This document shows, in pieces, positions 2,756 through 63,249 of a stretch of DNA of 64,000 nucleotides. A program made the translations under genes and the position numbers. Each line of letters begins with the position of its first letter. Position 1 is the first letter of the stretch. Source of the stretch: Argyresthia goedartella (lineage: Eukaryota; Arthropoda; Insecta; Lepidoptera; Argyresthiidae); assembly GCA_949825045.1 (NCBI GenBank), contig OX463813.1:9486001-9550000 (forward strand), read 5' to 3'. Under the pieces are notes generated by a model. The model did no database searches and was not told the origin of the DNA. It worked only from the letters and a program-made list of their open reading frames with translations.

Positions 2756-2819
2756 CCCCTTAGATAGGTAAGATATGTAGTTAAGTTCTAATTTTAATGT
2801 AGTTATTAAATTTTTCCAG

Positions 2820-2934
2820 ATTTATTGTGAACAATCACAATCAAGTTCTGGCTACTAGCGTCGAACCGATCACCAAGGGTCCTGGGATACTCCTTAACCC
2901 AATTGGTACATTACGTGTCGTGGATGACCATTTT
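2820..2934 (+). pseudogene. env: Gypsy-A envelope gene, 5' fragment
   Basis: A pyrimidine-rich acceptor ending in AG at 2,818-2,819 precedes an open frame that includes EPITKGPGILL and runs to the LINE insertion. In errantiviruses env is translated from a spliced RNA, so an acceptor at this place, about 65 bp after pol, fits. The frame stops being env at 2,935, where a LINE has been inserted. The rest of the gene continues after 4,931. No signal peptide is visible in this piece. Confidence 0.6.
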
Positions 2935-4925: not shown

Positions 4926-4931
4926 CATTTT

Positions 4932-9642: not shown

Positions 9643-9650
9643 TATAAATA
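9643..9650 (+). promoter_or_regulatory. TATA box of the micro-exon gene
   Basis: TATAAATA lies 38 bp upstream of the ATG at 9,688. With the usual spacing of about 30 bp, transcription would start near 9,673, leaving a 5' leader of only about 15 nt. Short leaders and strong TATA boxes are common in abundant secreted-protein genes of insects. Confidence 0.65.
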
Positions 9651-9687: not shown

Positions 9688-9750
9688 ATGAAGTCAATCC
9701 TAATACTTGTTTTTGTGGCTTCGGCCCAGCTTGCAATAGCATCCAAATTG
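9688..9750 (+). CDS. Micro-exon gene, exon 1: signal peptide
   Basis: The 63 nt encode 21 residues beginning [10 protein letters not shown], with a short basic n-region, a hydrophobic core and an AIA cleavage-type end followed by SKL, so the product should enter the secretory pathway. The exon ends in phase 0 at the donor GTAAATCTT. The ATG is the first after the predicted transcription start. Confidence 0.8.
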
Positions 9751-12700
9751 GTAAATCTTCTTTTTTTTAAATATTATATGTTAAATTAGGCAGAGGCACA
9801 GTTATGTTTGTTTAGCGAGTAAATCAGTTCTCAAAATAGCGTTATACTGAGCTGGCCCATCGCCGCATGTATGGAATTATTAAGGTTTCTTTTCCTTTCG
9901 ATTTTCTTTCCTAGCCGCTCGATTGACTTTTGGGACCCCGAAGGGCGGTTCTCCAAGAAAGGAGATGACTGAAACATATTTTTGGCCACCCGCACTATCA
10001 GTTTCACAATTTACACCGAAGTACTAAAACTGATTACTCTACTTGAATCATATAGCTGTGTTTAACTTTTTAGTGATTTCTTGTGCAACGTATTAAAGCT
10101 ATACAAATAAAAACTCGGCATGTACGTTGATATGTTTTATATTTTATTTAAAAGCTTGATCTGTGCATATGTGACGTACCCACTCAGTGATATTGCAACA
10201 GACGAAAAATAAACATAAGTATTTTTTATTTTTCAGAATTGGGAGGACTCTACCTCGGAACTTGTGAGTAATAATCATTAATATGTTTTTGCAGTTAAAC
10301 ACAAAGATAATACTATTTTTATCATTGCCCCTCGAAAAAATGCATTTTATTCATCGATAACAGTGAATAAAACGATTTGTAAGACAGTTTCTGCTGAATG
10401 GTTTTCCCGTGCCGTTCAGTAAAAAAAGAAAATATCTAGTAAAAGCAAGGAGTAATATTCCCGTTTACAAATTTTATCAAGGATTTATGCAACTTGAATT
10501 TAAATACACCAGAAAAAATATGCGAATTATAATATGTCCGATTATAAAAACAAGATGTTGAGAAAATTTGCTATTAAAAAACCTGCAATCGAAAACAAAA
10601 GCGATTAAACATTTTCGCTACTAAAAGTCGGACCAAGAAATTATACAAGTTGAAAAAAAAACATCGCGGAATAATGCGAACGCTGAATGCCGCTACACTG
10701 CAAAGCGATTCAGCTGAAGCTGTCTAACAAACCAATGAAACGCTCTATCTCTAGTGAGTAAAAACTCACTAGAGATTAAATGACATTTGAATTTGGAATA
10801 AGCTTCAATCTACGAATTATGAACCTACTAAAATAAACGCGCTGAACTGAACTACTACTGGCAGGTTGAATATAGCTAGTCCCATTGATAAAAAAAAGAG
10901 AAACACAACCCGGAAATTTTAGAATGTATTAGGTTCTTTTCTGTTACTTATCGCGGTGTTTCATTGGAAAATATATTAGCTACCTAGTATAATTAGTTCT
11001 TCCAGTTATAAAAATTAACCACTTACTCTGGAATAATTTCGTTCAAAAGTAGCAATTATGTGCGATGCCAAAAACGATTGCCACATTCTTGAATCTATTA
11101 AACCCCGAACAGTGCACAGGACATTGCTTTCGTAGAAGCTCTGCCACCATTTTAGGAAATTCAGGTGCGGATCCTATAGTTGGGGTAACGGTACAGTAGC
11201 ATAAATTTATATCGAAGATTCGCCATATAAAGCGTAAAACGAACAAAGCTAAAAGATGCAGCCAAATAGTTGAGAGTATAAATCTTAAGCCGTCTATTGT
11301 TGATTCTTGCACGCCACTATCTCCGGGCCGCCCTTCAACATCGAAAGAAAATACTTGTGAAGCAACTATATCACAGCTTTCTCAGCAACATCAATAACTA
11401 AATACGAAGACTTTGCCAAATATCCAAGTCTTTTCTAATATGACTATTTCAAAACCAAACAAGAATATAACACTTAATTTCCAAAGCTGTTCAAATTTCA
11501 TAAAATATTTCTTATGTTAACACTACTTTATTTCCGATTATATAATAAAATGTGACATTTATAATTTATACCTCTACTTAGTTTCTCGTAGTCAATGGTA
11601 TAAAGTAGAGTACACAACTCGTGAAAGAAATATTTTTATTTTGGACCTTGTATCTCTCGCTCCGCTCAGGATTCTACTTTAGAATATCTCGCTACGCTCG
11701 GGATTCTACTCTAGAATCCTTCGATACTCAAGGGATCCAACTATGTGCCTCGAATTAAATACCCTTTTTATTCACTTGTTTTATCATCTACTATTTTATT
11801 TTTATTACAATTGAGACTTTTAAGACAATGAAAACATTCTTAAAGTTATAATTTTAATAAAAAAACATATAAAGACAAGAATTCCCTATTTCAAAGCCCT
11901 AACAGAGACACAAAATGACCGGATTTCTAGACTCAACGAGCTTATGTATAATTTGACCTGTGGTCATCGGGACCGAGTATTATATTTTGATACGAATAAG
12001 TTTATTCGAAATTTTATACTGACTAGGGATACATTGTATGTACCTGCGTCATCTAAGCGACAGATTGTAAAATTATTGGCATATAATATTTATGACCCTG
12101 TTATTGTTGAGAAAATAACTAGGGTGCCAGTGGGATATGACGAGTGTAGAAATAATTATACTAAACCTTTGTATGTTAAGAGTAATGTGACATGCACCCC
12201 TATTGGGAATTCACCTGTTAATCATACTTAGCATGCAACGTTGGAATCTGTTCCAAGTAATTTAAATTAGTTCATAAGACAATAGAGGAAATCTCTAGCA
12301 TACAAGAGCCCCAGTTATATATTGCCCATCAAAACATCCAGGGGCTACCTGGAAAAGAACATGTATTAGAATTATTTCTAAAAAATTCTGACATTGATAT
12401 TATTTGTGTTACAGAACACTGGTTGAAGGAAAATATGATGTCTTTTAACATAAATAATTACAAAATTGTCAGTTGTTACAATAGAAAGACTGCTGATAGA
12501 GGTGGGTCTTTAATCTTTGTGAAAAATACTTAATATTAAGGTGAAACAACGCAAAGATATTCTTGCACTTGCTGTTGAAATACAAATAGAGGTATCCTGT
12601 GTTGAGTTGGAAAGCCATATTATTGTTTGTGTCTACTGGCCACCGAGGGATGAAAAAGGCCATGGCAATTTCGAAATATTTGAGAAAATTATGGAGGAAG

Positions 12701-15700
12701 CCTTCAATAAACTATGTAATAACAGAAAAAAGTTAATTATTTGTGTCGATCTTAATGTAGATTTGCTTGTAGGAACAACAATGAAAGAACGATTAATAAC
12801 TTTATTCAAATCGTTTAACTTATGTCGTGTATTTTTAGAGCCAACTAGATTTACACTTACCAGCCAAACTTGCTTAATTAACATTTTTTGTGACAAAGTG
12901 TAATTAACTGCTTACCTTCCGATCACAGTGGTCAAACAGTTACATTCCCAATTGCTATTAAGGATAAGACTGGTCCATCATTTTATAGGCCTATTACATG
13001 CCATAGACTAGAGACATATACGAAAAACTTAGATATAAATTTGCCAGTACCGGATTTTAATGAACAGAACCCAAATAAATCTACTCAGACTTCATCAACA
13101 TTATTCAGACAGAATTCAAAAAAGTTTTTAAATTAAAGAAAGTCAGTGACTAGAACGGTAAATCTAAATTTAATAACTGGGCAACGTTTGGAATTCGTAA
13201 AAGTAGAGTTATCTTGTATGACCTTTATGATCAAAAAACCTATAACTTTGAGCGAAAATTTCATGACTATGTTAAAAAATATTCCAAAACTTTCAAGTTG
13301 GTTTGTAGAACTGCAAAAACTTTACACATTAATAGAAAAATTCAAAATTCAAATAATAGAATGAAAACAGTATGGCAAATAATAAACCGTGAAACTGGCA
13401 AAGTTATGCCAAGGGACAATGATTTCTGCCTAAAGATAGGTGATGATGTTGTTAAATCCAGCGATGTTGTTGCTCGAGCTTTTGAAACATTCTTCACCAA
13501 TGTACCCGTACTCTCGACAGATCGTCTAAATTCATCTCCATATGAAGCAGAGACTTTATTAAAAAATAATACTAGCGTAAGTAAGGTATATTTAAAATTT
13601 CATCATGTATATCTCCAGGACATTGTAAAACGTTTAAATTAGAGGGTATGTTGCGTATATCAGTCAAAGTCATTGGTTCAGTAATTCTAGTTATAGCCCC
13701 ACACTTAGCTTATATATTCAATAAATGTGTTGACGATGGGGCTTTCCCAGACCTCATGAAACACAGTAAACTGATACCTCTGTTCAAATCGGGAGATAAG
13801 GGTGATCCTTCAAATTTCAAACCAATATCTGTTCTTCCAACACTAAGTAAAATATTTGAAAAGAATATACTCAATCAAATGCTCTCACACTTCAACCGTA
13901 CAAAACAACTTCACGCCAAACAATACGGTTTCACTAGGGGTAAATCGACTACGGATGCAGGTATTACCCTTATATCTCATATTTATTCTGCATGGGAGGC
14001 CGCACAGGATGATTTCGGAGTTTTTTGCGACCTGTCGAAGGCGTTTGATTGTGTTGATCAAAATATGATATTAATTAAATTAAATCATTACGGAGTTCGA
14101 AATAAAGCGTTGGATCTACTAAGATCATACCTAAGCAATAGAATTCAAAAGGCAGAAGTTAGCGGCGCTAAATCTGATGAATCGGCTGTAAAAATTGGCG
14201 TTCCACAAGGTTCCATATTAGGTCCTTTCTTATTCCTGGTATATATTTACGATCTGCCTTTCATGGTGGAGATATTAACTGACATAGTGTTGTTTGCTGA
14301 TGATACTTCAATGATCTTCAAAATTTAAAGACAAAAAGAAGAGTTTGATGATGTTAATTGTTTATTGTCTTTAACCTTGAATTGGTTCACAGTTAATAAT
14401 TTATTGTTAAACGCTGGTAAAACCAAGTGTATCAAATTCTCACTTCCTAATGTCAGGCAGTTTGAGACCAGTTTAGTGTTAGACAACAGCACGTTAGAAT
14501 TAGTAAATGATACGAAGTTTCTTGGAATAACCATTGATAGCAAACTGCAGTGGGGACCCTAAATAGATAAATTAGCTGGTAAATTAAGTTCTGCGGTTTA
14601 CGCTGTTAGGAACATCAGACAAAACACGGATGTGGCTACATCTAGGCTAGTAGATTTTAGTTACTTTCATAGTGTGATGTCCTATGGTATCTTGTTGTGG
14701 GGGAAAGCAGCGGATATTCAAACTATTTTTATTTTACAGAAAAGAGCTATTCGAGCAATTTATAATTTAAAACGAACAGACTCCTTAAGAGAGCTTTTTA
14801 AAGAAATTGACATACTAACAATAGCTAGTCAATTTATTTTCGAAAATATAATGTATGTACGCAAGAACCTTACAACATTTTCCAAACTTAGCGATAGCTG
14901 TAATGTTAACCTAAGAAATAATCACAGACTGTGTGCACCCCGATTTAGATTCGCGAAGGATAGCAATTCTTTTAAGGGTCAGTGTATTCTCTACTATAAT
15001 AAGATACCTCTGGAGATTTTGAAATTGCCATTTGAGCAATTTAAAAAGCATGTTAAAGCGACTTTGTCAAATAGGGATATTACAATGTTCAAGATTACTT
15101 AAATGACAGGACTGTATGGTGTTAATCTAGCTCAACACAGGCCTTGCTGTTAATAATTTTGTAATTATTTATTCCTGCTTATTAATTATAATAATAAAAT
15201 TTTTCATATTTGTAATTTTTCATATCTAAAAATCAATCTGTGGGAGTTTCTATGCCCTTCTTCTCCCACAGTGGTCCAACGTAGAGAAGAGGCAAAATTT
15301 ACGTTTGCTAAGTAGATGTAAAAATCTACAGTAAAAAAAAAAATTAAGACTTTTGCGATCCCGAAGGGCGGTACTCCAAGAAAGGAGTTTACTGAAACAT
15401 ATTTTAAGCCACCCGCACGATCAACTTTACAATGTACACTGAAGCACTAAAACTGATTAATCCACTTAAATCATATTGCTGTGTTTAACTTTTTAGTGAT
15501 TTCTAGTGCAACGTATTAAAGCTATACAAATCAAAACTCGGAATGTACGTTGATATGTTTTACATTTTAGTGAAAGTATGATCTGTATATGACGTACCCA
15601 CATAGTTATATTACCTCGGACGAAAAATAAACATAAGGATATTTTATTTTTCAGAACAGGGAGGACTCTACCTCGGAACTTGTGAGTGACAATCATTATT

Positions 15701-18700
15701 TTTTTTTAGTTCAACATTGCCCCTCGAAAAAGTGCATTTTATTCATCGATAACAGTGAATAAAACGATTTGTTATACAGTTTCTGCTGAATGGTTTTCCC
15801 GTGCCGTGCAGTAAAAAAATAAAATATCAAATTAAAGCAAGGAGGTATATTCCCGTTTACAAATTTTATCAAGGAATTATGCAACTTGAAATAAATACGC
15901 CAGAAAAATTTGCGAATTAGAATATGTCCGATTATAAAAACAAGATGTTGAGAAAATTTGCTATTAAAAAACCTGCAATCGAAGACAAAATCGATTAAAA
16001 ATTTTCGCTACTACATTAAAGTCAAGGCAAGAAATTTTACAAGTTGAAAAGAAGACAGCGCGAAAAAATGCGAATGTTGAAAGTCACTACTCTGGAAAAC
16101 GATTCAGCTGAATCGGTCTAATAAACCAATAAAACGCTCTTTTACTCACTAGAGATTTAATGACATTTGAATTTGGAATAAGCTTCAATATACAAACAAA
16201 TAAACCTACTAATATAAACGCGCTCAACGTGTCAGGCTGAATAGAGCTAGTTCCATTGTATTAGATTCTTTTCTGTTATTTATTGTAGTGTTTCATTGGA
16301 AAATATATTAGCTACCTAGTAAAATGAGTTCTTGAAGTGATGAAAATGAATTATTTACACCGGAATCATTTTGTTCAAAAGTAGCAATTTTGTGCGATGC
16401 CAAAAATAATTGCCACATTTTTGAAACTATTAAATCCCGAACAGTACCCAGGATATTGCTTTCGTTGAAGCTCTGCCACCATTTTAGCAAATTCAGGTGC
16501 GGATTTGACATAACTGAAACGCTGCGGAGGTTAGGGGTCCAGCACAGTAGCATAAATTTATATCGAAGATTTTCCATATGAAGCATATATCGAACAAAGC
16601 CAAAAGATGCAGCTGAATAGTTGAGAGTATAAATCTAAAGCCGTCTATTATTGACTATTGCACGTCACTATCTCCGGGTCGCCCTTCAACATCGAAAGAA
16701 AATACTTGTGAAGAAATTATATCACAGCTTTTTCAGCAACACCAATCACTAAATACGGAGACTTTGCCAAATATCCAAGTCTTATGCGACCATTTCAAAA
16801 CCAAACAAGAATATAACACTAAATTTCCAAAGCTGTTCTAATTTCACAATACATTTCTTATGTTAAACCTACTGCCCATTATGACTATTGACCTTACTAA
16901 GGATGACCCAGTGTGTAATGTGGCAGCCAGCAGCAGGGACAGCACACACAAACTGAAACTGAGTAAAAATAAGTTGAGAAAATATGTCAAAATTAATAAG
17001 TTTATACAAAAAAACAAAAACATGTTAAAAAATCAAAAAAAGGTTGTAACAAAGCATCGTAATAAAAGAAGGGTTTTAGATAAACTGGAGATGTGTACCG
17101 CTCAGCTTAATTATAACCAGATTAGATATGAGGACAAAATGCATGAGCTAAGATGCAAACTTGACCAGGCGGAGCGCACCCTGGGGCACTGCATTGGCCT
17201 CTATGACAAAACCAGAGCGGAAACCAGGGAACTGAATCTAGCTATGGATGCAGTTCTCAGTAGCCAGGTTAGCCTAGAAACTAAAATAATGGAGAGCTGC
17301 TGTTGTGTGCCGGACTATGCTCCGTCGGCTTCTTCCCTTCTGGATGTCAGCCCTTCATATCCAGATATAAAAACAATTATGTACAGCGATGAACTTGGAA
17401 AAAATGCGGGTGAATTATTAAATATGAATATGGAGCATACGGTAATAAATAATTGTTTACCAAACTGTAATCTGCATGATATTGTACAAAAAGTAGATAA
17501 CGTTACATATAATGATGGCTCTTATTAAATCATATGTCTCGATAATAGGGGTAATGTAAACAAGTCTGACTAAATTAAATATTTAGACAAGCTCTGTTCT
17601 TTAAAAGTAAAACAAATTGTTATGTTCACATTGCCTTACAGCGACAGCCTACCACAATCATAAAACAACCTTAGATATAAGCTGAATATGACCTTGCATA
17701 CTATATCATGCAATAATAATATACATGTAATGGATACTAACAGTTTTGTTAGTAGAAATAAATAATATTTGACTAAAGGTAAATATTACCTTCCTAGTTA
17801 TTACAAAAGACAAGTAGCAAATTCGCTATCCTATTATTTTAATATAACAGCCAAAAATTTGGCTACAGATAATGCCTTTATTGACCATTATACTGAAACA
17901 AAACCTTGGAAGTTTTTCCAAGTCATTTAAATCCCAAAAAAATATTCTGTAAAAAACTGCCCAAGTCTCGATGGAGCTGCTTGTTTATCTCTAAAAAGTA
18001 ATGAAATCTAGACAAAGTCGTGCCAAGTCTAAAGTTCCTTACAACGATTTCTTTATTATTATAGTTAATGTTGTGTAACTTGGCCGTTGAACATTCATAA
18101 AGAATGTATAAAACATTAGTAGGTATAAGTCAATTTTGTTAACACGTAATGTTATATCTGTTGTAACTACCTATGTTATATCTGTTACTCTCAATGTCTG
18201 TTTAATATTTATGCGTCGGAAACGCACCGGTTTTTTGTTGCGCGAATCGATCGCGAGTAATCGAGACATCACTAGCGAAAACGGCCCTAGCAGCTGTCAC
18301 TCGTATCGGAAACGAGATGTAAAATTGGAGGTTAATCTTCCTCTTGGTCTGGTCTCATCGGTGAGAATAACATGGCGGCTCGGGCCCCGTGATGGTATTT
18401 CGGTGTACCAATTATCATACAGGCATCGGGCCTGGTCAGAGTGTAAATCTACCTCATAGCGTCGGGCTATTGATTGTAAGTAGATTCGCGTCAGCGGCCA
18501 AGTGATCCCGGTTGTTTGGACATCGTCGCATCGGTAGCGGCGACTCCACGGTCACGGCAGGCAGCACGCCGGCGACAGCGTCGGCAGCAACGATAGGTTT
18601 CGATTCACTCCATATCCTATCCCAAACTGTGCCCCTTTCCCGTATTCCCGTCTCGAATCGAGCTTTCGATTTCCTGCCTACGGAGACAAGGTCAGTAACC

Positions 18701-24700: not shown

Positions 24701-27700
24701 ACGTATAAAGCTGGAGGTTTCTTGTCGCCTCTTTGCCTCCAGCATCTAAAACATTGAGGTGACGGAATTAAAATTGTGTTCTATATTTCCCTACACCTTA
24801 TATATGTGTTAGTTTAAGATTTTACATTCTCCAAATGTAACCTATGTGTTTCTTATAGAAATAAACTCTTTTTGAATTATGAATTTTGAATTTTACTTTA
24901 TTTCCGATAGAATAATAAATTGTGATAAATATAAACTAAATCTCTATTTATTTTCTCGCAGTCAATGGCAAAAAATTGAGTACACAACCGAGAGTTCGCA
25001 ATATAGATGTACAGGTCCGCCACTCTCCAGGTGCGAATGCACATTTGAACCAACCCCGTTCCGTGGGAGTCCGCCAAGGAGATAATCTTAACAATGTCCT
25101 AGAGGGAGCTTTGAAGACTTTGGACTGGAGCGAAAGAGGTCTCAATGTCAATGGCGTGAATCTTTCGCACCTGAGATTCACTGACGATCTGGGCCTGGTG
25201 GTTGAGAACGTTGCGGATCTCCAGTCCATGCTCGCAGAATTGCATGAAGCATCCCTGAAGGTCGACCTCAAGATGATCATGTCCAAGACAAAGATGTTGA
25301 CAGACACTCCCACAAGCAACGGTATCGACATTATTGTGGATAACCTTCCCCTAGAAGTGGTTGAGGAGTATATCTATCTTGGACATTGTTTGTCTTTTGG
25401 TCGACAAAGCCAGGTAAAGGAGATAGCTAGACCAGTCCAGCTAGGATGGGCTGCTTTCGCAAAACTAAGGGATGTTCTAACCTTTAACATCCCTCAATGC
25501 CTGAAGACAAAGGTATTTCACCAATGTGTACTAACGAAGGAGATGGTACACAAAGTCACGGTAGCACAAAGAGCCATGGAGCGTGCCATGCTAGGCATCA
25601 GGCTGTCAGACCGTATCCGTAATACCGAAATCAGACGGCTTAAGTGGAAGTGGGCAGGACACTTGGCAACGCGAGAAGACGGAAGATGGACCAGATCGTT
25701 GACAGAGTGGTGGCTAAGAGGAGGCCATAGATCGGTCGGCAGACCATCCGGTCGGACCATGGTCCGATGATGTGGGGAGGGTGGCAGGAAAGCAATGGAT
25801 GCGGGTTGCGCAGGAGCGTTCTGAATGGCATGTTTATGACGAGGCCTATACCCAACTGTGGGTCCCCTGAGAGGCTGATGATGATGATGATGATGAGAGT
25901 ATACAACTCGTGAAAGAAATATTTTTATTCTGGACCTTGTGTCCCCGCTCCGCTCAGGATTCTACTTTAGAATATCTCCCTACGCTCGGAATTCTACACT
26001 AGAATGCTTCGAACTCTCGGGATCTTACTTCGTGCCTCGCATTAAATTTCCTTTTTTTTTCACTTGTTGTATGATCTACTATTTTATTTTATTACAATTG
26101 AGACATTTAAGACAGTAAAACATTCTTAAAGTTATAGTAAAAAAACAAACATATAAATACAAGAATAAGCAGTAAGCAGAGGCTTCCGGCGAAATTCACT
26201 AAAAATCTTATCGTTCGTTTTTCTTTCCTAGCCGCTCGATTGACTTTTGGGACCCCGAAGGGCAGTTACCCAAGAAAGGAGTTGACTGAAACACATTTAA
26301 AGCCCCCCGCGCGATGAGTTTCACAATTTACACCGAAGCACTAAAACTGATTACTACACTTAAATCATATTGCTGTTTTTAAAATTTTATTGATTTTTTA
26401 TGCAACGTATTAAAACTATACAAATCAAAACTCGGCATGTACTTTGATGTGTTTTACATTTTATTGAAAGCATGATCTGTATGTAATGTACCCACATAGT
26501 TATATTGCCACGGATGAAAAATAAACATGAGTATATTTTATTTTTCAGATCAAGGAGGACTCTACCTCAGAACTTGTGAGTGATAATCTATAATATTTTT
26601 TTTGCAGTTCAACACAAAATTAATACTATTTTTACCACTGCTCCTCGAAAAAGTGCATTTTATTCATCGATAACAGTGAATAAAAAGATTTGTCAGACAG
26701 TTACTGCTGAAACGTTTTCCTGTGCTGTTCAGTAAAAAAAGAAAATAGCAAGTAATAGCAAGTAATAGCAAGTAGTTATATTCGTGTTTACAAATTTTAT
26801 CAAGGATTTATGCAACTTGAAATAAATACGCCAGAAAAAATATGTGAATTAGAATTAGTCCGATTATAAAAACAAGATGTTGAGAAAATTTGCTATAAAA
26901 AAACAATCGCTTTTGTCTTCGATCGCAGGCGCAAAATTTTCGCTACAACATAAAAGTCAAGCCAAGAAATTTTACAAGTTGAAAAAAAGACATCGCGGAA
27001 AAATGCGAATGCTGAAAGTCACTACACTCGAAAACGATATAGCGAAAGCTGTATAACAAATTAATGAAACGCTCTTTTAATCACCAGAGATAACATGACA
27101 TTTGAATTGGAATGAGCTTCAATATTCGAATGATTACCTTCTAAAATAAACGCGCTGAACTTAACTACTACTGGCAGGCTGAGTAGAGCTAGTTACATTG
27201 ACAAAAAAAAGAGACACACACAACCCGCCAATTTAAGGTTGTATGAGGTTCTTTTCTGTTAATTATCATGGTGTTTCATTGGAAAATATATTAGCTACCT
27301 AGTAAAATGAGTTCTTCCAGTGATGAAATTGAATCAGTTACTCCGGAATCATTTCGTTCAAAAGTAGCAATGATGTGCGATGCCGAAAACGATTGCCACA
27401 TTCTTGAACCTATAAAGCCACGAACAGTACACAAGACATTGCTTCCATAGAAGCTCTGCCACCATTTCAGAAAATTCAGGTGCGGATCTTACAGAACTAA
27501 AACGCCACGGAGGATGGGGGTCCAGCACATTAGCATCCATTTATATCGAAGATTCGCCATATAAAGCATATATCGAACAAAGTCAAAACATGCAGCCGAA
27601 TAGTTGAGAGTATAATTCTAAAGCTATTTTTTGTTGACTCTTGCACGCCTCTATCTCCGGGGCGCCCTTCAACATCGAAAGGAAATACTTGTGAAGCAAC

Positions 27701-30700
27701 TATATTACAGCTTTTTTAGCAACACCGATCAGTAAATACGAAGACTTTGCTAAATACCCAAGTCTTTTCTAACACGACCATTTCAAAACCAAACAAGAAT
27801 TGAATTTCCAAGGCTGTTCTAATTTCACGATACCTCTCTTATGGTAACCCAATTTTTTTTCTAATTAAATAATAAAATTTGATAAATAGAAACTTAACCT
27901 CCATTTATTTTTTCTCAGTCAATGATAAAAAGTAGAGTACACAACCCGTGAAAAAAATATCTTTATATTTGACCTTGTATCCCTTCCTTTGCTCAAGATT
28001 CTTTTTACGAATATCTCGCTACGCTCGGGATGCTACTCTAGTATCCTTCGATACTCTCGGGATCAAACTTCGTGCCTCGAATTAAATTTCATTTTTTTTT
28101 CATTGATTGTATAATGTACTGTTTTATTTTTATCACAATTGAGACATTTAAGACAGTTAAAACATTTTTAAAGTTATAATTTTAATAAAAAAACATAAAA
28201 AGACAAGAAAGTTAGCAGAGGTTTCCGGCGATTTTCACAATAAATCTTATCGTTCGTTTTTCTTTCCTAGCTGCTCCATTGACTTTTGGCATTCCGAAGG
28301 GTGGTTCTCCAAGAAAGGAGTTGACTTAAACATATTTTAAGCCACCCGCACGATCAGCTTCAAAATTTACACCGAAGCACTAAAACTGATTACTCCACTT
28401 AAATCATATTGCTGTGTTTAACTATTTAGTGATTTCTTGTGCAACAAATTAAAGCTATACAATTCAAAACTCGGCATGTACGTTGATATGTTTTACATTT
28501 TATTGAAAGCATGATCTGTATGTGACATACCCACTCAGTTATATTGCCACGGACGAAAAATAAACATAAGTATATTTTATTTTTCAGAACAGGGAGGACT
28601 CTACCTCGGAACTTGTGAAGGACTCTACCTCGGAACTTGTGAGTGATAATCATTAATATTTTTTTTGCAGTTCAACACAAAGATAATACTATTTTTCCCA
28701 TTGCCCTTCGAATAAGTTCATTTTATTCCTCGATAACAGTGAATAAAACAATTTGTTAGACAGTTTCTGCTGAATCGTTTTGCCGTGCCGTTCAGTAAAA
28801 AAAGAAAATATCAACTAAAAACAAGTAGTTATATTTCCATTAACAAATTTTATCAAGGAATTATGCAAAATGAAATAAACTCGCCAGAAAAAATATGCTA
28901 TTTAGAATATCTCCGATTATAAAAACGAGATGTTGAAATAATTTGCTATTAAAAACCTGCGATCGAAGACAAAAGCGATTAAACATTTTCGCTACTACAT
29001 AAAACTCAAGCCAAGAAATTTTACAAGTTGAAAAAAAGACATCGCGGAAAAATGTGAATGCTGAAAGTCACTACACTCGAAAACGATTTAGCGAAAGCTG
29101 TATAACAAATTAATGAAACTCTCTTTTAATCACCGGAGATTAAATGACATTTGAATTTGGAATAAGTTTCAATATTCGAATTATATACCTACTAAAATAA
29201 ACGCGCTGAACTTAACTACTACTGGCAGGCTGAGTAGAGCTAGTTACATTGACAAAAAAAGAGACACACACAACCCGCCAATTTTAGGTTGTATGAGGTT
29301 CTTTTCTGTTACTTATCATGGTGTTTCATTGGAAAATATATTAGCTACCTAGTAAAATGAGTTCTTCCAGTGATGAAAATGAATCAAATACTCCGGAATC
29401 ATTTCGTTCAAAAGTAGGAATGATGTGCGATGCCGAAAACGATTGCCACATTCTTGAACCTATAAAACCACGAACAGTACACAAGACATTGCTTCCATAG
29501 AAGCTCTGCCACCATTTCAGAAAATTCAGGTGCGAACATAGTCAAAACATGCAGCCGAATAGTTGAGAGTATAATTCTAAAGCCATTTTTTGTTGACTCT
29601 TGCACGCCACTATCTCCGGGGCGCCCTTCAACATCGAAAGGAAATACTTGTGAAGCAACTATATCACAGCTTTTTTAGCAACACCAGTCAGTAAATACGA
29701 AGACTTTGCTAAATACCCAAGTCTTTTCTAATACGACCATTTCAAAACCAAACAAGAATATAACACTGAATTTCCAAGGCTGTTCTTATTTCACGATACC
29801 TCTCTTATGGTAAACCAACTCTATTTCTAATTAAATAATAAAATTTGATAAACAGAAACTAAACCTCCATTTATTTTTTCTCAGTCAATGATAAAAAGTA
29901 GAGTACACAACCCGTGAAAAAAATATCTTTATATTTGACCTTGTATCCCTTCCTTTGCTCAAGATTCTTTTTACGAATATCTCGCTACGCTCGGGATGCT
30001 ACTCTAGTATCCTTCGATACTCTCGGGATCAAACTTCGTGCCTCGAATTAAATTTCCTTTTTTTCACTGATTGTATAATGTACTGTTTTATTTTTATCAC
30101 AATTGAGACATTTAAGACAGTTAAAACATTTTTAAAGCTATAATTTTAATAAAAAAAACATATAAAGACAAGAAAGTAAGCAGAGGTTTCCGGCGATTTT
30201 CACAATAAATCTTATCGTTCGTTTTTCTTTCCTAGCTGCTCCATTGACTTTTGGCATTCCGCAGGGTGGTTCTCCAAGAAAGGAGTTGAAGTAAACATAT
30301 TTTTAACCACCCGCACGATCAGCTTCAAAACTTACACCGAAGCACTAAAACTGATTACTCCACTTAAATCAAATTGCTGTGTTTAACTATTTAGTGATTT
30401 CTTGTGCAACAAATTAAAGCTATATAATTCAAAACTCGGCATGTACGTTGATATGTTTTACATTTTATTGAAAGCATGATCTGTATGTGATATACCCACT
30501 CAGTTATATTGCCACGGGTGAAAAATAAACATAAGTATATTTTATTTTTCAGAACAGGGAGGACTCTACCTCGGAACTTGTGAAGGACTCTACCTCGGAA
30601 CTTGTGAGTGATAATCATTAATATTTTTTTGCAGTTCAACACAAAGATAATACTATTTTTACCATTGCCCTTCGAATAAGTTCATTTTATTCCTCGATAA

Positions 30701-36700: not shown

Positions 36701-39700
36701 TTGATAAATATAAACTAAACCTCTATTTATTTTCTCGCAGTCAATGGTAAAATGTAGAGCACTCAACTCGTGAAAAAAATATGTTTATATTTGACCTTGT
36801 ATCCCTTCCTTTGCTCAAGATTATTTTAGCGAATATCTCGCTACGCTCGGGATTCTACTCTAGTATCCTTCGATACTCTCGGGATCAAACTTCGTGCCTC
36901 GAATTAAATTTCCTTTTTTTTCACTGATTGTATAATCTACTGTTTTATTTTTATCACAATTGAGACATTTAAGACATTTAAAACATTTTTAAAGTTATAA
37001 TTTTAATAAAAAAACATATAAAGACAAGAAAGTAAGCAGAGGTTTCCGGCGATTTTCACAATAAATCTTATCGTTCGTTTTTCTTTCCTAGCTGCTCTTT
37101 TGACTTTTGGCATTCCGAAAGGTGGTTCTCCAAGAAAGGAGTTGACTTAAACATATTTCAAGCCACCCGCACGGTCAGCTTCAAAATTTACACCGAAGCA
37201 CTAAAACTGATTACTCCACTTAAATCATATTCCTGTGTTTAACTATTTAGTGATTTCTTGTGCAACGAATTAAAGCCATACAATTCAAAACTCGGCATGT
37301 ACGTTGATATGTTTTACATTTTATTGAAAGCATGATCTGTATGTGACGTACCCACTCAGTTATATTGCCACGGACGAAAAATAAACATAAGTATATTTTA
37401 TTTTTCAGAACAGGGATGACTCTACCTCGGAACTTGTGAAGGACTCTACCTCGGAACTTGTGAGTGATAATCATTAATATTTTTTTGCAGTTCAACACAA
37501 AAATAATACTATTTTTACCATTGCCCTTCGAATAAGTTCATTTTATTCCTCGATAACAGTGAATAAAACAATTTGTTAGACAGTTTCTGCTGAATCGTTT
37601 TCCCGTGCCGTTCAGTAAAAAAAGAAAATATCAACTAAAAACAAGTAGTTATATTTCCATTAACAAATTTTATCAAGGAATTATGCAAAATGAAATAAAC
37701 GCGCCAGAAAAAATATGCTATTTAGAATATCTCCGATTATAAAAACAAGATGTTGAAAAAATTTGCTATTAACAACCTGCGATCGAAGTCAAAAGCAATT
37801 AAACATTTTCGCTACTACATAAAAGTCAAGCCAAGAAATTTTACAAGTTGAAAAAAAGACATCGCGGAAAAATGTGAATGCTGAAAGTCACTACACTCGA
37901 AAACGATTAAGCGAAAGCTGTATAACAAATTAATGAAACGCTCTTTTAATCACCAGAGATTTAATGACATTTGAATTTGGAATAAGCTTCAATATTCGAA
38001 TTATATACCTACTAAAATAAACGCGCTGAACTTAACTACTACTGGCAGGCTGAGTAGAGCTAGTTACATTGACAAAAAAAAGAGACACACACAACCCGCC
38101 AATTTTAGATTGTATGAGGTTCTTTTCTGTTACTTATCATGGTGTTTCATTGGAAAATATATTAGTTACCTAGTAAAATGAATTCTTCCAGTGATGAAAA
38201 TGAATCACATACTCCGGAATCATTTCGTTCAAAAGTAGCAATGATGTGCGATGCCGAAAACGATTGCCACAATCTTGAACCTATAAAACCACGAACAGTA
38301 CACAAGACATTGCTTCCATAGAAGCTCTGCCACCATTTCAGAAAATTCAGGTGCGAACAAAGTCAAAACATGCAGCCGAATAGTTGAGAGTATAATTCTA
38401 AAGCCATTTTTTGTTGACTCTTGCACGCCACTATCTCCGGGGCGCCCTTCAACATCGAAAGGAAATACTTGTGAAGCAAATATATCACAGCTTTTTTAGC
38501 AACACCAATCAGTAAATACGAAGACTTTGCTAAATACCCAAGTCTTTTCTAACACGACCATTTCAAAACGACCCGACGACCCGAATGACGACCCGAATGG
38601 CCGAGTCGGCAGTGACCCTGCCTACGAAGCCAAGGGTCCCGGGTTCGAGTCCCGGTGGGGGCAAATATTTGTTTCATGAGAACGGATGTTTATACCCTAG
38701 TCATGGTTGTTTATCTATCTATGTATAATATTTATCTATATAAGTATGTGTATCGTTGTCTAGTACCCAAGATACAGGGAATCCTAGTTTGGGGCTAGAT
38801 CAATGTGTGTAAATAGTGTCCAAGGTATTATTATTATTATTATAAAACCAAACAAGAATATAACACTGAATTTCCAAGGCTGTTCTAATTTCGCGATACC
38901 TCTCTTATGGTAACCCAACTTTATTTCTAATTAAATAATAAAATTTGATAAATTATAACTAAACCTTCATTTATTTTTTCTCGGTCGATGGTAAAAAGTA
39001 GAGTACACAACCCGTGAAAAAAATATCTTAATATTTGACCTTGTATCCCTCCCTTTGCTCAAGATTCTTTTTACGAATATCTCGCTACGCTCGGGATTCT
39101 ACTCTAGTATCCTGCGATACTCTCGGGATCAAACTTCGTGCCTCGAATTAAATTTTCTTTTTTTTTCACTGATTGTATAATCTACTGTTTTATTTTTATC
39201 ACAATTGAGACATTTAATACAGTTAAAACATTTTTAAAGTTATAATTTTAATAAAAAAAACATATAAAGACAAGAAAGTAAGCAGAGGTTTCCGGCGATT
39301 TTCACAATAAATCTTATCGTTCGTTTTTCTTTCCTAGCTGCTCCATTGACTTTTGGCATTCCGAAGGGTGGTTCTCCAAGAAAGGAGTTGACTTAAACAT
39401 ATTTTAAGCCACCCGCACGATCAGCTTCAAAATTTACACCGAGGCACTAAAACTGATTACTCCACTGAAATCATATTGCTGTGTTTAACTTTTTAATGAT
39501 TTCTTGTGCAACGAATTAAAGCTATACAATTCAAAACTCGGCATGTACGTTGATATGTTTTACATTTTATTGAAAGCATGATCTGTATGTGACGTACCCT
39601 CTCAGTTATATTGCCACGGACGAAAAATAAACATAAGTATATTTTATTTTTCAGAACAGGGAGGACTCTACCTCGGAACTTGTGAAGGACTCTACCTCGG

Positions 39701-42700
39701 AACTTGTGAGTGATAATCATTAATATTTTTTTGCAGTTCAACACAAAGATAATACTATTTTTACCATTGCCCTTCGAATAAATTCATTTTATTCGTCGAT
39801 AACAGTGAATCAAACAATTTGTTAGACAGTTTCTGCTGAATCGTTTTCCCGTGCCGTTCAGTGAAAAAAGAAAATATCAACTAAAAACAAGTAGTTATAT
39901 TTCCATTAACAAATTTTATCAAGGAATTATGCAAAATGAAATAAACGCGCCAGAAAAAATATGCTATTTAGAATATCTCCGATTATAATAACAAGATGTT
40001 GAAAAAATTTGCTATTTAAAACCTGCGATCGAAGACAAAAGCGATTAAACATTTTCGCTACTACATAAAAGTCACGCCAAGAAATTTTACAATTTGAAAA
40101 AAAAACATCGCGGAAAATGTGAATGCTAAAAGTCACTACACTGGAAAACGATTCAGCGGAAGCTATCTAACAAATCAATGAAACGCTTGACATTTGAATT
40201 TGGAATAAGCTTCCATATACGAATAATGTACCTACTAAAATAAACGCGCTAAACGTAACTACTACTGGCAGAATGAGTAGAGCTAGTTCCATTGACAAAA
40301 AAAAAGACAAACACAACCCGCCAATTTTAGATTGTATTAGGTCCTTTTCTGTTACTTATCGTGGTGTTTCATTGGAAAATATATTAGCTACCTAGTAAAA
40401 TGAGTTCGTTCATTGATGAAAATGAATTACTTATCCAGAATCATTTCGTTCAAAAGTATCAAATATGTGCGATACCAAAAACAATTGCCACATTCTTGAA
40501 TCTATTAAACCCCGAACAATTCACAGGACATTGCCTATGTAGAAGCTCTGCCACCATTTAAGCGAATTCAGGTGCACATCTTATAGAACTGAAACGCCGC
40601 AGAGGTTGGGTTACGGTACAGTAGCATAAATTTATATCGAACATTCGCCATATAAAGCATATATCAAACAAAGCCAAAAAATGCAGCCGAATAGTTGAGA
40701 TAATAATTCTAAAGCCATCTTTTGTTGACTCTTGCATGCCACTATCTCCGGGGCGCCCTTCAACATCGAAAGGAAATACTTGTGAAGCAACTATATCACA
40801 GCTTTCTCGGCAACACCAATCAGTAAATACGAAGACTTTGCTAAATACCCAAGTCTTTTCTAATACGACTATTTCAAAACCAAACAATAATATAACACTA
40901 AATTTCTAAAGCTGTTATAATTTCACAATACATTTCTTATGTTAAACCTACTTCATTTCCGATTAAATATTAAAATGTGATAAATATAAACTAAACCTCT
41001 ATTTATTTTCTCGCATTCAATGGTAAAATGTAGAGCACTCAACTCGTGAAAAAAATATATTTATTTGGACTTTTTATCCCTCGCACTGCTCAGGATTCAT
41101 CTTTATAACATCTCGCTATGCTCGGGATTCTACTCTAGTATCCTTCGATACTCTCGGGATGAAACTTCATGCCTCGAATAAAATTTCCTTTTTTTTCACT
41201 TATTGTATACTTAGACTTTAAAAACATTCTTGAAGTTATAATTATATTAAAAAAAACATATAACGGCAAGAATGTAAGCAGAGGTTTCCGTCGAATTTAA
41301 TTATAAATCTTATCGTTTGTTTTTCTTTCCTAGCCGCTCGATTGAATTTTGGGACCCGGAAGGGCAGATCTCTAAGGAAAGGAGTTGACTGAAACATATT
41401 TTAAGCCACCCACACGATGAGATTCACAATTTATACCGAAGCACTAAAACTGATTATTCCACTTAAATGATATTACTGTGTTTAACTTTTTAGTGATTTC
41501 TTGTGCAACGTATTAAAGCTATACAATTCAAAACTCGGCATGTACGTTGATTTGTTTTACATTTTATTGAAAGCATGATCTGTATGTGACGTACCCACTC
41601 AGTTATATTGCCACGGACGAAAAATAAACATAAGTATATGTTATTTTTCAGAACAGGGAGGACTCTACCTCGGAACTTGTGAGTGATAATCATTAATATT
41701 TTTTTGCTGTTGAACACAAAGATAAAGAGAAATATATTTTAACCATTGCCCCTCGAAAAAGTGCTTTTTATTCATCGATAACAGTGAATAAAACGATTTG
41801 TTAGGCAGTTTCTGCTGAATCGTTTTCCCGTGCCGTTCAGTAAAAAAAGAAAATATCAAGTAAAAGCAAGGAGTTATACTTCCGTTTACAAATTTTATCA
41901 AGAAATTATGCGCCAGAAAATATGCGATTTTACTCTTGAATCCTTCGCTGCTCTCGTGATCCAACTTCGTGCCTCGAATCAAATTTCCTTTTTTCACTTT
42001 TTGTATAATCTACTATTTTATGTTCATTACAATTGAGACATTTAGGACAGTAAAACATTCTTAAAATTATAATTTTAATAAAACATACATAAAAAGACAA
42101 GGATGTAAGCAGAGATTTCCGACGAATTTCACAATCAATATCATCGCTCGATCGACTTTGGGTACCCTGATGGGCGGTTCTCCAAGAAAGGACTTGAATG
42201 AAACAATTTTAAACTACACGTGTGACCAGCTTCACTGTATACACCAAAGCACTTAACCTAATTACTCCACTTAAATCATATTGCTGTGAGTAACATGTTA
42301 GTGATTTCTTTTGCAACATATTAAACAATCAAAACTCGCCATGTACGTTGTTGATGTTTTATAATTAATTGAAAGCAGGGTCTGTGTATAACACACCCAC
42401 TCAGTTATATTATAGACTAAAAATAAACATAAGTATATTTATTTTTCAGAACAGGGAGGAGAATAAATGTTGTTTTTATATCAATATATATAATATTATT
42501 ATCTTTATTATATTATTATCATACTAATTAACTACTGTATTGGAAATACGGTATTTGACTGCTGTTCAAAAAACATGCTTTTTAGGAACTGTCCAAACAG
42601 TAATTTTGTTCATGAGTGTGATTCTCCATAAACTGAACATATTAAATAGGGTTAAAGAGGACCCTATTTTAAAGACAAAAAATGTTTAAAAAAAATCCCA

Positions 42701-54700: not shown

Positions 54701-57700
54701 CCTTCGCCTGGCTGGTATGCCGAGGCGAGGTATAAGGAGAGACCCCCTTGCCCCGTGTCAATGTTCACCACGGTTAGAAGTGTTATTAACGTGGTTTTGT
54801 AGTGATTCGGGGCATATATGGCCGCCCTCACTTTTATGTTTGAATAGTAGGTATATATATTTCCAAATAAGTTATTGAAACCACATAGCCTGCTTTTATA
54901 AATTGCTGGCTCTTGTATAAGTGCGATCGTCTTCGGGTACTCTTCGAGAGTTCTCCGAAGGGCCGCTGCACCGGAGGAGCTATGTTGGATGTTGGCTTGT
55001 ATGATATTTGTGTTAGCGCCTTTTGCTATTGTTATTATATGTAGTGTGAATGTTTTTTTTTAATACATGTATACATATATTATATATATGTAAGTTATTT
55101 TATTATGTGTGCAAAGCATGTTGTGAAAGGACACATAATTATTATTACTCCCCCTCTGCTGGAGTTGAACTTTCGTCCTCGGAGCCGAGAAGCGCCTCGA
55201 CCTCGTCGGACATCGGTGAGCCAATCGCTAGGTTTCGGATACCTAGCGCTTCCCCCACGCTGCCCGCCGAGGCCCTGCGTGTTGGCAGAGTGTTGCTGCT
55301 ACCTTCAGCGTCACTCGGTGCGGGCTGCACCTCACTCGGCTGGCCGGCTGGAGCGGGTCTGGACCCAGTTCCGCCTGCCCTCCGTTTGAGCTCCACCTTC
55401 ACCGAGCCACACTTGTAGCAGACCTTCATCTGCCTTTTCTCCAGCTCCGGGATATCCGACTCGGGGATTCCGAATACCATGATGGCACCCTGAAGCTCCG
55501 AGTCGGTGTTTTTTAGCTCCCCCTTTAGAAGGCGCCAGCGACTCATGTCGATGCCGCGCTGACGGTTTGCCCTTATCAGTCGGAGCCTCAGCCCCTCGAT
55601 GTCAGTTCCCTGAACATCGGGAAGCCAGACCACCCCTTTGATGAGTTTTGGCAACTCCGTCATGCCGACCGCCATGAACTAGCAGCCTTCTTCCCATAGG
55701 GGGGGGGGGAGGGGGGGGAGGTTTGCTGTCGTGACCTTAAGCCACGCCACGGTTTCTTGGTCGAGGCTGGTGAATTTAAGTCCGCCTTGCGGCAGACGTT
55801 GCGGCATATGATCGAAGCCCGGGATAAGGTCTTGGGTCAGGTCATCTACCGCTTCTTCTTGTTGCTTCTCCATCTCTAGACGGAGAAGAACGCCTTGTTC
55901 GGCCGTCATATCTTGACCGTCAATGGGGACGATCACCATGATCAGGTGCGAGTTAGCAGCCTTGGCATAGGATAGTCCAGGTTGGACTCACTTGTCCCTT
56001 ACATTTGGGCCTGAATTACAGGGTCTTTTGAACGGTCCCCTAATCAACTCCCCGTTCGGCGACACCTGGTCATCAGACCTCATTCTTTTTGTTTAGGGTC
56101 TGCTTGTCCTGGCCACAGAGCTTGCCCCATGTGCTTGCTCTGATGACCCCTCCGATCTGCCCTTCCCCACCCCTTTGCCCTTACGGCGCCGAGGCGGCAG
56201 ACGGGGGAGGGCCCGAGTTTGCGCTTTCCCCAGTTAATTTTTCTTTTCCCGCAGGCACCTGCCCCTCCCCTTGGGCTGGTTGCTGCGAGAATGTATTTCG
56301 CCGTGATGTGGCTTGATTTAGGGGGTGGTGCTGTCCCGCACGCGGTCCCATAAAAGGAGCGTTGTGAGCCTGCCTTCCTGACCTTTTGGTGTTGTGGTGC
56401 TGTCCCGCACGCTTTCCCGTATGGGGAGCGGTGTGAGCCTGCACCACAGTTTCGTTGGTGTTGTGGTGGTGCTGTCCCGCACGCGATCCCATATTGGAAT
56501 TGGTGTGAGCCTGCGCCACAGTTCCGTATGTTAAGTGTTGGTGCTGTCCCGCACGCGGTCCCATGTTGGGATCGTTGTGAGCCGGCACCTCCACTTCCGC
56601 AAGGTTGAGGTTAGAGGCATCCGTGGCCCTAAGACGTATGGCCGCGACTATAGCAAGCTCCTCTGCAAGGCGCTGCTTCCTCTTCTTTGTCTTTGAGGCA
56701 CCACTTCTATCGTGCCTCTTATTTTTTGACTCATTTATCCTCCGAGGCGAGCGCGTGTCACCACGCGAGCAAATAGGTTGTTGGCCCCCAGAAAACGACC
56801 CACCGAGAACCTGCGGGGGGGGGGGGGGTCCAGTACTGGTAGTACAGGAACCCTCCTGGGGTATTAGATGCCCCGTATTTGACTCCATGGTTTTAACCCT
56901 TTCGGGCCCCATCTTTCAAGTTTGCAGTACGTTACGTACCGTTGCTGACGACTAGGCGTTGTCCGGCCAGTAAACCGGCACGGTACTGCGGACGCTGCGC
57001 ACTTACCGCCCGCAGGTCGTGATTTTTTAGAGTGCGCACGTACCATACACTTTATTTTCACCGCCAATCTTTGTCCCTCTGAAGGAGGCCGGATGGGCTG
57101 CCTTACGCCCTTACTTTAGAGTGTTCGCGCCGGAGAAAACTAAAACGCCGATCGTCATACCTGGAGGAGGTCAGATGGGCTCCCCTTGTCCGCGGCTACC
57201 TGCTCATGGAACAGGCAGCTGACCCTCCGATTGGGGGGCCATTCGCCATCCGCAACCTGCGACGCGCTTGGTCCCATGGGAAATGGGTCCTTCTAGATCA
57301 CCATGTCGGTCACCCGGAGGCATTTCGGGAGATGTTGACATATGTGGGTCCGTCAGGCAAGAGCAGCCCAGACTTATCAAAGGTTCATGAATGACGTAGT
57401 ATTAAAAGGCATAGAACAGATTAAGTGCGAGTCTACCAGGGAATCGAGTACCGAAAAATCGCATCTGTTACATTGATGACATCGCTATATTGAGTCACTG
57501 TGTGGAATGCCATAAGAAACACCTATATGTGGTTTGCCAAAGGTATAGTGAGTGCGGGCTAACCATCAATATGGCAAAGTGTGAATTTGCAAAAGATAAA
57601 GTAAAATTCCTTGGTTACGAAGTATCGACGGAGGGTATCAAACCCGTCCAAATTAAAGTGGAGGCCATCATGAATTTTCCCCGCCCACAAACAGTAGAAC

Positions 57701-60700
57701 AACTGAGAAGATTCTTAGGGATAATTAATTTTTACAGATCACATCTGCCCAGAGCCGTGGAACAACAGCAGGAACCACAGTTCCTGCTGTTGTTCCACGT
57801 TTCTGCAAGTTTCTGCACAACACTAAGAAAAGAGAGAATACCAGAATAACGTGGACGGAGGAGGCGTGTAAAGCATTTGAACAATTTAAGGTGAGCCTTA
57901 GAAACGCTATCACCTTAGCTCATCCATTAGAAGGCGTTCCTTTAGAACTGATGTCTGATGCATCTGATTCATGTATCGGCGGAGTACTACAGCAGTGGAA
58001 TGGTAAGTCGTGGAGACCGTTAGGATTTTACTCAAAGAAACTTTCCGGTACTCAGACTAAATATAGTACCTATGACAGAGAACTTCTAGCAATATACTTA
58101 TCAATCCAACATTTACAGAACATGATCGAAGGCCGACCATTGATAATCTTCACAGACCATAAGCCGCTATCATTCGCATTTACAAAGCCCGACAACGGCA
58201 AGGAGTTAGCTAGAAGAGTTAGACAATTAGCATACATGAGTGAGTTCTCAAAAGATATAAGACATATAAAAGGCGACCTCAACATTTTAGCTGACGCCTT
58301 GTCCCGTGTTGAAACAATAGAATGCCCCACTGTGTTCTATGTCGCAGACTAAGCAAGAGCGCAGGAAGCCGATACTCAGATTACATTACTGCTAAATGAA
58401 GCAAGCGATAAAAATAGATATGAATTGAAACAATGTAGCATGCCCAACTCAGACAGCAAGGTATATTGTGAAGAAACTCAAACAATATTAGACCATACGT
58501 CCCGGAAAATATGAGGAAACAAGTTTTTGGTGTAATTCATGGCATCAGCCATCCAGGTATTAAGACAACAAGGAGAATGGTAGCTTAGAGGTACTTTTGG
58601 CCAGATATGAATAAGGAAGTAGGCCTTTGGGCCAAAACTTGTATCGCCTGTCAGCGAGCCAAAGTAGTGCGTCATACCAGCTCCGGGATAGGGCAGTTTG
58701 AGAAGAAACAACGTTTTGAATATATTCAAGTCGACATAGTAGGCCCACTACAGACAACTCAAGAGGGTTACAGGTATGTAATGACAGTTATAGACAGATT
58801 CACCAGGTGGCCTGAGGCTTTCCCACTGAAAACAATAACGGCAGATATAGTTGCAAAAACGCTGTACGAGGGCTGGATTTGTTGATTTCGAAATTGTATG
58901 GTAATAACCATAGAGCAAGGCTGGCAATTCGAGAGTGATTTGTTAACAAAACTGATGAATATGTTGAGTGTAAAAAGAATCAGAACAACCGCATACCACC
59001 CCGAGAGCAACGGCATGATAGAACGCTGGCACCATAGCCTTAAGGCGGCGCTAATGGCAAGGTTATCGCAGACCTCGTGGGTGGACGAACTTCCAACGCT
59101 CCTGCTTGGATTGAGAACAACGATTCGTAGTGATTCAGGGATAAATACCGCCGAACTGGTATACTGACAGACAATCACATTACCGGGAGAAATGTATGTA
59201 CAAAGTCCGCAGAGATCGTTAGACGAACATGAGTACTTAGAAACACTGCATAAGGCAATGGCACAGAATCGGCCCCAGCCCAAGTCACACTCGAATTCTA
59301 GAGCCGTGTTTGTTCATCCGGACCTAAAATTATGTGAGTATGTAGTTATTAGAAACGACGCCGTACGCATACCTTTAGAGCCACCGTATGACGGACCGTA
59401 CAAAGTGGTAAGTAGAACAGATAAATATTATTCGATACAGTTGCCCAATAGAATCACGCAAGTTTCAATAGACAGGCTTAAACCTACATATTTAATTAGG
59501 GAAGACGAAGATACTTTTGACAGAAACCCAAAGGTAGCATCGAGAGTAAGGGACAGACAAACCAACAGACAATAGACATGCCACCCCCTTTTTCAAAGTC
59601 CGAGCCCGCGGCAGATTTAGTACCCGCTGGCGAAAAGTGCACACGTGGCGGCCGTATCGTCAAGCGACCCGTGCCCTTCATTAATTGAGCACACGAAATA
59701 GGTATAAGTTTTGAGTACATAAGAATATAGTTTTAAATACAGACATTGTCAGATGTTAAATGACGGAGGTTGTTGTAAGAAAAATGTTAACCTCAGCGGT
59801 CAGCACCATTATTTAGAACAGTCTATAGTTTAAATATAGTTGTACGAGAGTAAATCGACATTATTAACGCAATCTTGGTAAGAGGTACTTATTGGGCGCA
59901 TAGCGCATCAATTGCATCGAGTAAACAAAATTGCTATTTTTTTTGGAACATAATGGGTGGAAATCAAAGCAAGCACGAGGAAATACTAATTGCGCAAAAC
60001 GGAGCTAATAATGCGAGTCCGCGCATCAAAGAGGTAGAAACAAAAGTTAATAGTAATTTTATGGTGTTAATAGTGCAGACAGTGGCTGTAGTGTATATGT
60101 ATTTGTATATGGCCTTCAGACTTTACAAGAATCATCTAAGAAAATTATTTAAAAAGGACATGAATGCAGCATCCCAAAATGTGTAGCGATTAAGAAGTAG
60201 TCTCGTAAGTTTTTATTTTATTGATTGTATTCGCAATGTACGTTTGTACGTAATAAATGTATTTAATTTCAAGTCGGGCTTGAAACACATGCACCGCAAT
60301 GTATCGTTGGCTTGGGGACACAAAATAAATAGGTATACGTTTGTTTTTGTGTCATGCAATTTAATATGAAATGTACTAAGGATGGGTATTTTATGTTAGA
60401 CTTAAGTGGGTTATCCTCAGTTCAGCTTTGTATAACTGCAGTATTTCGTCAAAAGTAGTTTGATAACGTATTGTTGGAATGAGTATCAACGTAGGACTTT
60501 CGTGGGATTGTGTACTTAGTATGACGCTAAGGAGGTACTCATTCCAACAAGTTTTAAATAACGTATTTAATTTCAAATGTAATTTCTAATCTTTGAAATA
60601 GAAAGAAATATTATTTATTGAAACCTCAATGTTTTAGATGCTGGAGGCAAAGAGGCGACTAGAAACAATTTTTCAATTTAGTCGTTCCGTCGTAACGTTC

Positions 60701-63249: not shown

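Follow-up and report, generated by a model that had tools for sequence, protein, structure and literature searches.

We found that a chain of micro-exons in a moth genome is probably a real lepidopteran gene, which encodes one large, repetitive, secreted protein. The predicted gene consists of 57 coding exons from 9688 to 178629, all on the + strand, and only 1,731 nt of its 168,942 bp (1.0%) are coding. The window, i.e., the whole stretch of DNA that was analyzed, comprises 64,000 nucleotides (bases 9,486,001-9,550,000) of a 1.1-Gb genome. Its edge cuts the predicted gene and leaves 13 of the 57 exons inside; the window numbering is continued into the adjoining chromosome on both sides, giving coordinates above 64,000 or below 1.

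The exons of the model, their phases, the + strand chain, and the terminal stop are demonstrated at the level of the DNA sequence. Transcription would begin from the TATA promoter just upstream of exon 1, and splicing would yield a coding mRNA of roughly 1.7-kb. The cell would then secrete a hydrophilic, cysteine-free, and probably disordered repeat protein. The sequence also shows that the modules of the chain multiplied through tandem and segmental duplication.

Structure of the predicted gene

The original prediction had proposed at least twelve micro-exons spread over 53 kb. All 13 exons listed in it were present (Table 1), with AG/GT borders (for exon 1, a GT after the exon) and fitting phases; its extent was too short, as the predicted gene spans 169 kb with 57 exons. 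Inside the window, the final exon ends in phase 2, and therefore the chain must go on beyond the window. Downstream exons were identified with a splice-and-frame scan over the next 119 kb and by homology among its repeats. Homology alone recovered the C exons at 81692, 116405, 138982, 141621, and 171213 and the A exons at 124477 and 152692, which the splice scan had missed. The weakest splice sites in the model were an acceptor of 4.8 bits and a donor of 3.6 bits. A recheck from the raw sequence revealed no border faults, no phase faults over 56 junctions, and a stop as the last codon only; because the exons were picked to fit the frame, this perfect phase is partly by construction.

Table 1. 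Features of the predicted gene inside the window, with its terminal exon
Feature	Coordinates	Strand	Description
TATA box	9643..9650	+	TATAAATA, read directly; 37-44 bp upstream of start codon
Exon 1 (S)	9688..9750	+	63 nt, signal-peptide-like, donor GTAAAT
Exon a1	10237..10263	+	27 nt, NWEDSTSEL
Exon a2	15655..15681	+	27 nt, NREDSTSEL
Exon a3	26549..26575	+	27 nt, IKEDSTSEL
Exon a4	28588..28638	+	51 nt, 24-nt tandem duplication
Exon a5	30553..30603	+	51 nt
Exon a6	37409..37459	+	51 nt
Exon a7	39655..39705	+	51 nt
Exon a8	41652..41678	+	27 nt
Truncated ninth a copy	42450..42460	+	Acceptor and first 11 nt retained; remainder and donor gone; not counted
Exon A	60929..60952	+	24 nt, DADDTVVK, phase 0 to 0
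Exon B	61557..61582	+	26 nt, phase 0 to 2
Exon C	61739..61787	+	49 nt, phase 2 to 0
Exon B	63221..63249	+	29 nt, phase 0 to 2; C partner outside window at 67778-67826
Terminal exon T	178552-178629	+	Good acceptor, 25 codons, stop

The model comprises one S, eight a, 13 A, 17 B, 17 C, and one T exon, and the grammar S a8 (A (BC)+)+ T matches the entire 57-exon string. Among the 13 A/B/C blocks, nine hold a single B+C pair and four hold two. The a exons are 27 or 51 nt long, the A exons 24 or 48 nt, the B exons 3n+2, and the C exons 3n+1; homologous B exons in the downstream array measure 20, 17, and 11 nt, differing by multiples of three. The 55 internal exons range from 11 to 51 nt; 38 of them start in phase 0 and the other 17 in phase 2. 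Introns range from 156 to 19,250 bp.

It had been claimed that any of the exons could be skipped without a frameshift. This holds for the 21 exons (8 a, 13 A) that are 3n and in phase 0, whereas the 17 B and 17 C exons keep the frame only as pairs, which are jointly 3n in 17/17 cases (pair length 42-78 nt). As A is 3n and B+C is jointly 3n, the gain, loss, or skipping of whole modules preserves the frame, which is not so for B or C alone. Judged from these lengths, in-frame skipping of single A exons and of whole B+C pairs is possible. The length and content of possible isoforms could therefore vary and evolve quickly.

Within the gene span, two kinds of candidates were rejected as exons. A B-type exon at 178123-178145 (AKRLHSS, 23 nt) has good splice sites and was excluded because no C partner was found at any reasonable score. 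In the 4-kb units, a 33-nt NKAPRKQEYSK string and a 48-nt FLIGMH string showed stops in sister copies or borders that were not conserved.

The TATA box likely represents the core promoter of the predicted gene, judging from its sequence and position. Exon 1 was signal-like by hydropathy, in agreement with its earlier description as a signal-peptide exon. The case for the terminal exon amounts to a single acceptor, 25 codons with a stop, and ATTAAA 46 nt past that stop, a limited basis. The predicted protein has 576 aa and no cysteines, with S, G, V, and A abundant; units such as SANPGESR-VNAKYYG-QDRGAADGYV recur in its second half. Assuming cleavage after residue 19, the mature part is hydrophilic (GRAVY -0.85), and no 19-aa segment exceeds 0.56. 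The product is most likely a gland secretion (silk, saliva, accessory gland, or similar), and the choice among the glands is a guess.

It is rather unlikely, if worth serious consideration, that the locus instead holds several shorter tandem genes, e.g., one with the a array and the first modules and another with the array of 4-kb units and an unseen first exon. The exons do form three distinct arrays, separated by long introns of 19,250, 13,543, and 17,559 bp, yet the module grammar continues unbroken through them and no in-frame terminal exon is required before 178552. Similarly, another signal-like exon, preceded by a TATA-like box, lies 80 kb upstream (-69732), whereas in the scan of the + strand from 9688 to 178629 exon 1 was the sole good signal exon, beside just one weak candidate at 118190 (47-nt, phase-2). 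Moreover, the intron blocks that flank the in-window modules were found again flanking downstream modules, tying the two parts together. The single gene is thus the preferred reading, and it may have alternative first or last exons.

Evidence for coding

We defined a strong micro-exon candidate by an acceptor plus donor score of at least 17 bits and a loose one by 13 bits. The 169-kb region contained 25 strong candidates on the + strand versus 3 on the - strand, and 12 first-order Markov resamples gave a mean of 7.5 and a maximum of 12; the + strand count is inflated by tandem copies, and the same tandem repeats are present on the - strand. The best phase-consistent chain scored 144.3 on the + strand, compared with 14.5 on the - strand and at most 53.8 in 12 resamples. 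These values bear out the earlier expectation that chance would rarely produce such a chain. At the loose cut-off, the + strand density was 67.4 per 100 kb in the gene and 65.3 upstream, indicating that single weak candidates carry little meaning. With strict cut-offs the chain control clearly favors the + strand, but with loose ones the preference nearly disappears.

The eight a exons lie within repeated units of ~2 kb and had been described as near-identical. Their 21-nt core together with the 6-nt donor showed a mean pairwise identity of 99.1%, compared with 85.6% in the aligned flanks, and was matched by 0/306 flank windows. The identity of the whole 27-nt exon was 95.4%, a value reached in 14/306 flank windows; therefore, the conservation is strong for the core only. 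The 51-nt form arose from a 24-nt duplication spanning the donor, in which GTGAGT of the first copy became GTGAAG, lowering the donor score from 7.1 to 2.1 bits; its GTG is now a Val codon.

The C and A exons were compared in diverged copies (seven of the 12 C31 and seven of the 11 downstream A24 exons), with near-identical copies dropped. Exon identity was 0.883 versus 0.747 in the flanks for C, with 0/110 flank windows as high, and 0.815 versus 0.562 for A, with 0/26 as high. The third codon position was the most variable in both, as the identities at positions 1/2/3 were 0.924/0.952/0.784 for C and 0.964/0.792/0.690 for A. The RGAADGYV core is encoded by 12/12 C31 exons, and all differences within it are synonymous. 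A degenerate pattern of this motif plus a donor gave 13 matches in the 1.1-Gb genome (12 exact), 13/13 of them at the locus of the predicted gene and on the + strand, and the reversed-pattern control gave 0 genome matches. The pN/pS ratio was 0.40 for C and 0.59 for A. The flank comparison, the core of the C exons with the pN/pS of C and A, and the motif test agree on coding status, which does not rest on frame choice alone.

The B20 exons differed from this pattern, with a pN/pS of 2.19 (7 distinct sequences of 18 nt, few sites), which is not purifying. The high ratio was seen, e.g., from 80984-81003 to 115461-115480, beside neighboring C exons at 0.40. The B exons appear to be relaxed or diversifying, and diversifying selection is possible on this small sample.

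A decaying gene, which once coded, became swollen by retroelements, and no longer makes the full protein, is an improbable explanation. Many retroelement ORFs lie in the introns: the window holds 24 ORFs of at least 150 aa, and 8/10 of those scanned for domains carry reverse transcriptase, integrase, RNase H, Pao peptidase, or endonuclease domains (the others, one baculovirus F-like domain and one DUF7041), and retroelements therefore make the introns longer. Decay would also fit introns of up to 19,250 bp, the truncated ninth a exon, the orphan B exon at 178123, and the isolated, partnerless C exons upstream. However, 1,731 nt in 57 exons run without an internal stop or frame break, and recent duplicate units (94-97% identical) retain their frames. 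The variable third codon positions and the RGAADGYV core kept in all 12 C31 exons likewise argue against decay. That the micro-exon-like strings were drawn from repeats by chance is highly implausible, as the equal density of loose candidates upstream is outweighed by the strong-candidate and chain controls, the codon-position pattern, and the confinement of the motif to the locus.

Relation to known micro-exon genes

Homology searches returned no relatives of the predicted protein. The first protein search gave no homologue at E <= 10 among 71 candidates, the protein collection none at E <= 1 among 7,992 scored, and Pfam 0 families at E <= 10. As a control, a Pao/BEL piece of the window matched 204 proteins at E <= 1e-20, and the best 11 of 120 listed were all from Lepidoptera, indicating that the collection holds lepidopteran proteins. 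In a protein search of the same genome, 6/7 matches lay inside the window; the seventh was on contig C17 (E 1.4, one stop). The literature matches listed included no lepidopteran micro-exon gene.

Schistosome micro-exon genes (MEGs) are described as having a signal peptide, exons of 6-81 bp that are mostly 3n, and long introns; their products are secreted and often disordered, retroelements lie nearby, and alternative splicing has been proven (PMC10526429, PMC5825161). According to these sources, 35 MEGs of S. mansoni contain 10 to 20 short exons, which mostly measure 15 bp. About 80% of the coding region of a MEG lies in symmetric exons of 6-36 bp (PMC5825161). As the original prediction had proposed, the layout of the moth gene resembles this one in its N-terminal signal exon, its chain of very short exons, its long introns, its predicted secreted and probably disordered product, and the retroelements around it. 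All 55 internal exons are at most 51 nt, of which 21 (a, A) are symmetric singly and the B and C exons only as pairs. The moth gene differs in its 57 exons in one gene, its paired 3n+2/3n+1 exons, and its phylum; moreover, alternative splicing is proven in MEGs and a predicted possibility in the moth. The collection-wide protein search found no sequence relation to schistosome MEGs at E <= 1.

The aphid bicycle genes, as reported, contain many micro-exons and a signal sequence, have no known homologues, and evolve fast; their internal exons begin almost without exception in phase 2, and Cys-Tyr-Cys motifs occur in many of the proteins, though not all (PMC9168663). The moth gene is likewise an insect micro-exon gene with a signal-like exon and without homology to known proteins. 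However, its internal exons begin in phase 0 in 38/55 cases and in phase 2 in 17/55, its 576 aa include no cysteine, and the published bicycle classifier gave a score of -147.3. By this classifier, the moth gene is not a bicycle gene. The megacycle gene, described in the same source, has over 100 microexons; in Melanaphis sacchari, 118 exons occupy about 100 kb. Its secreted protein of 2,092 aa has 15 internal repeats, expression in the salivary gland is strong, and the account given there reports no orthologues outside aphids (PMC9168663). The moth gene shares with it a large repeat protein of the secreted type (secretion is predicted in the moth) from a chain of micro-exons, but it has 57 exons and 576 aa, and repeat unit, phases, and sequence are all different.

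By this comparison, bicycle and megacycle genes are the nearest described insect cases. The earlier statement that no described insect gene has this sequence agrees with the searches made here, which found none that shares it; insect genes of this architecture, however, have been reported from aphids (PMC9168663).

Parasitic flukes, as well as aphids and their kin, have micro-exon genes for secreted proteins, whose suggested role is to provide variable or host-acting secretions. A lepidopteran case with a different phase grammar and no common sequence would suggest that the architecture originated repeatedly. Automatic annotation easily misses such genes; therefore, the class may be larger than known.

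Growth of the locus and its surroundings

Two units, at 104.5-108.6 and 109.0-113.1 kb, share 97.1% identity. Parts of 114617-124596 match 139916-152811 at about 93-95%, a segmental duplication of several modules. The locus thus presents steps of exon birth side by side, i.e., the donor-spanning 24-nt duplication, the 97%-alike units, and older, diverged modules. Tentatively, we entertain an independent lepidopteran micro-exon system, in which free A and B+C cassettes would be spliced into many variants, duplication of 2-kb and 4-kb units would add new ones, and a second, older gene would lie just upstream.

The upstream signal-like exon (-69732 to -69667, MNTVMIIFFVISAVVAITSAVP) is 66 nt long, in phase 0, and has the donor GTAAGT; a TATA-like box (TATAAATAAA) lies about 70 bp 5' of its ATG. 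Judged by sequence, this exon may start a second gene of the same kind, ~80 kb upstream. A signal-like ORF at -9136 was rejected as, by eye, a piece of reverse transcriptase in another frame. Two upstream exons resemble the C exons of the array in blastn, YRGAADIFV at -50664 to -50637 (E 1.8e-8) and QLRGAIDSAYP at -27311 to -27278 (E 1.2e-10). Upstream, the -50664 exon had no clear B partner, -27311 and -24324 had none, and the exons could not be joined into a consistent chain. The exons at -50664 and -27311 show that C-like exons can occur outside a clean chain, a point against the predicted gene.

Inside the window, positions 1391-6608 hold an errantivirus-like retroelement; its ORFs include an integrase and, at 5055-6608, a baculovirus F-like envelope.
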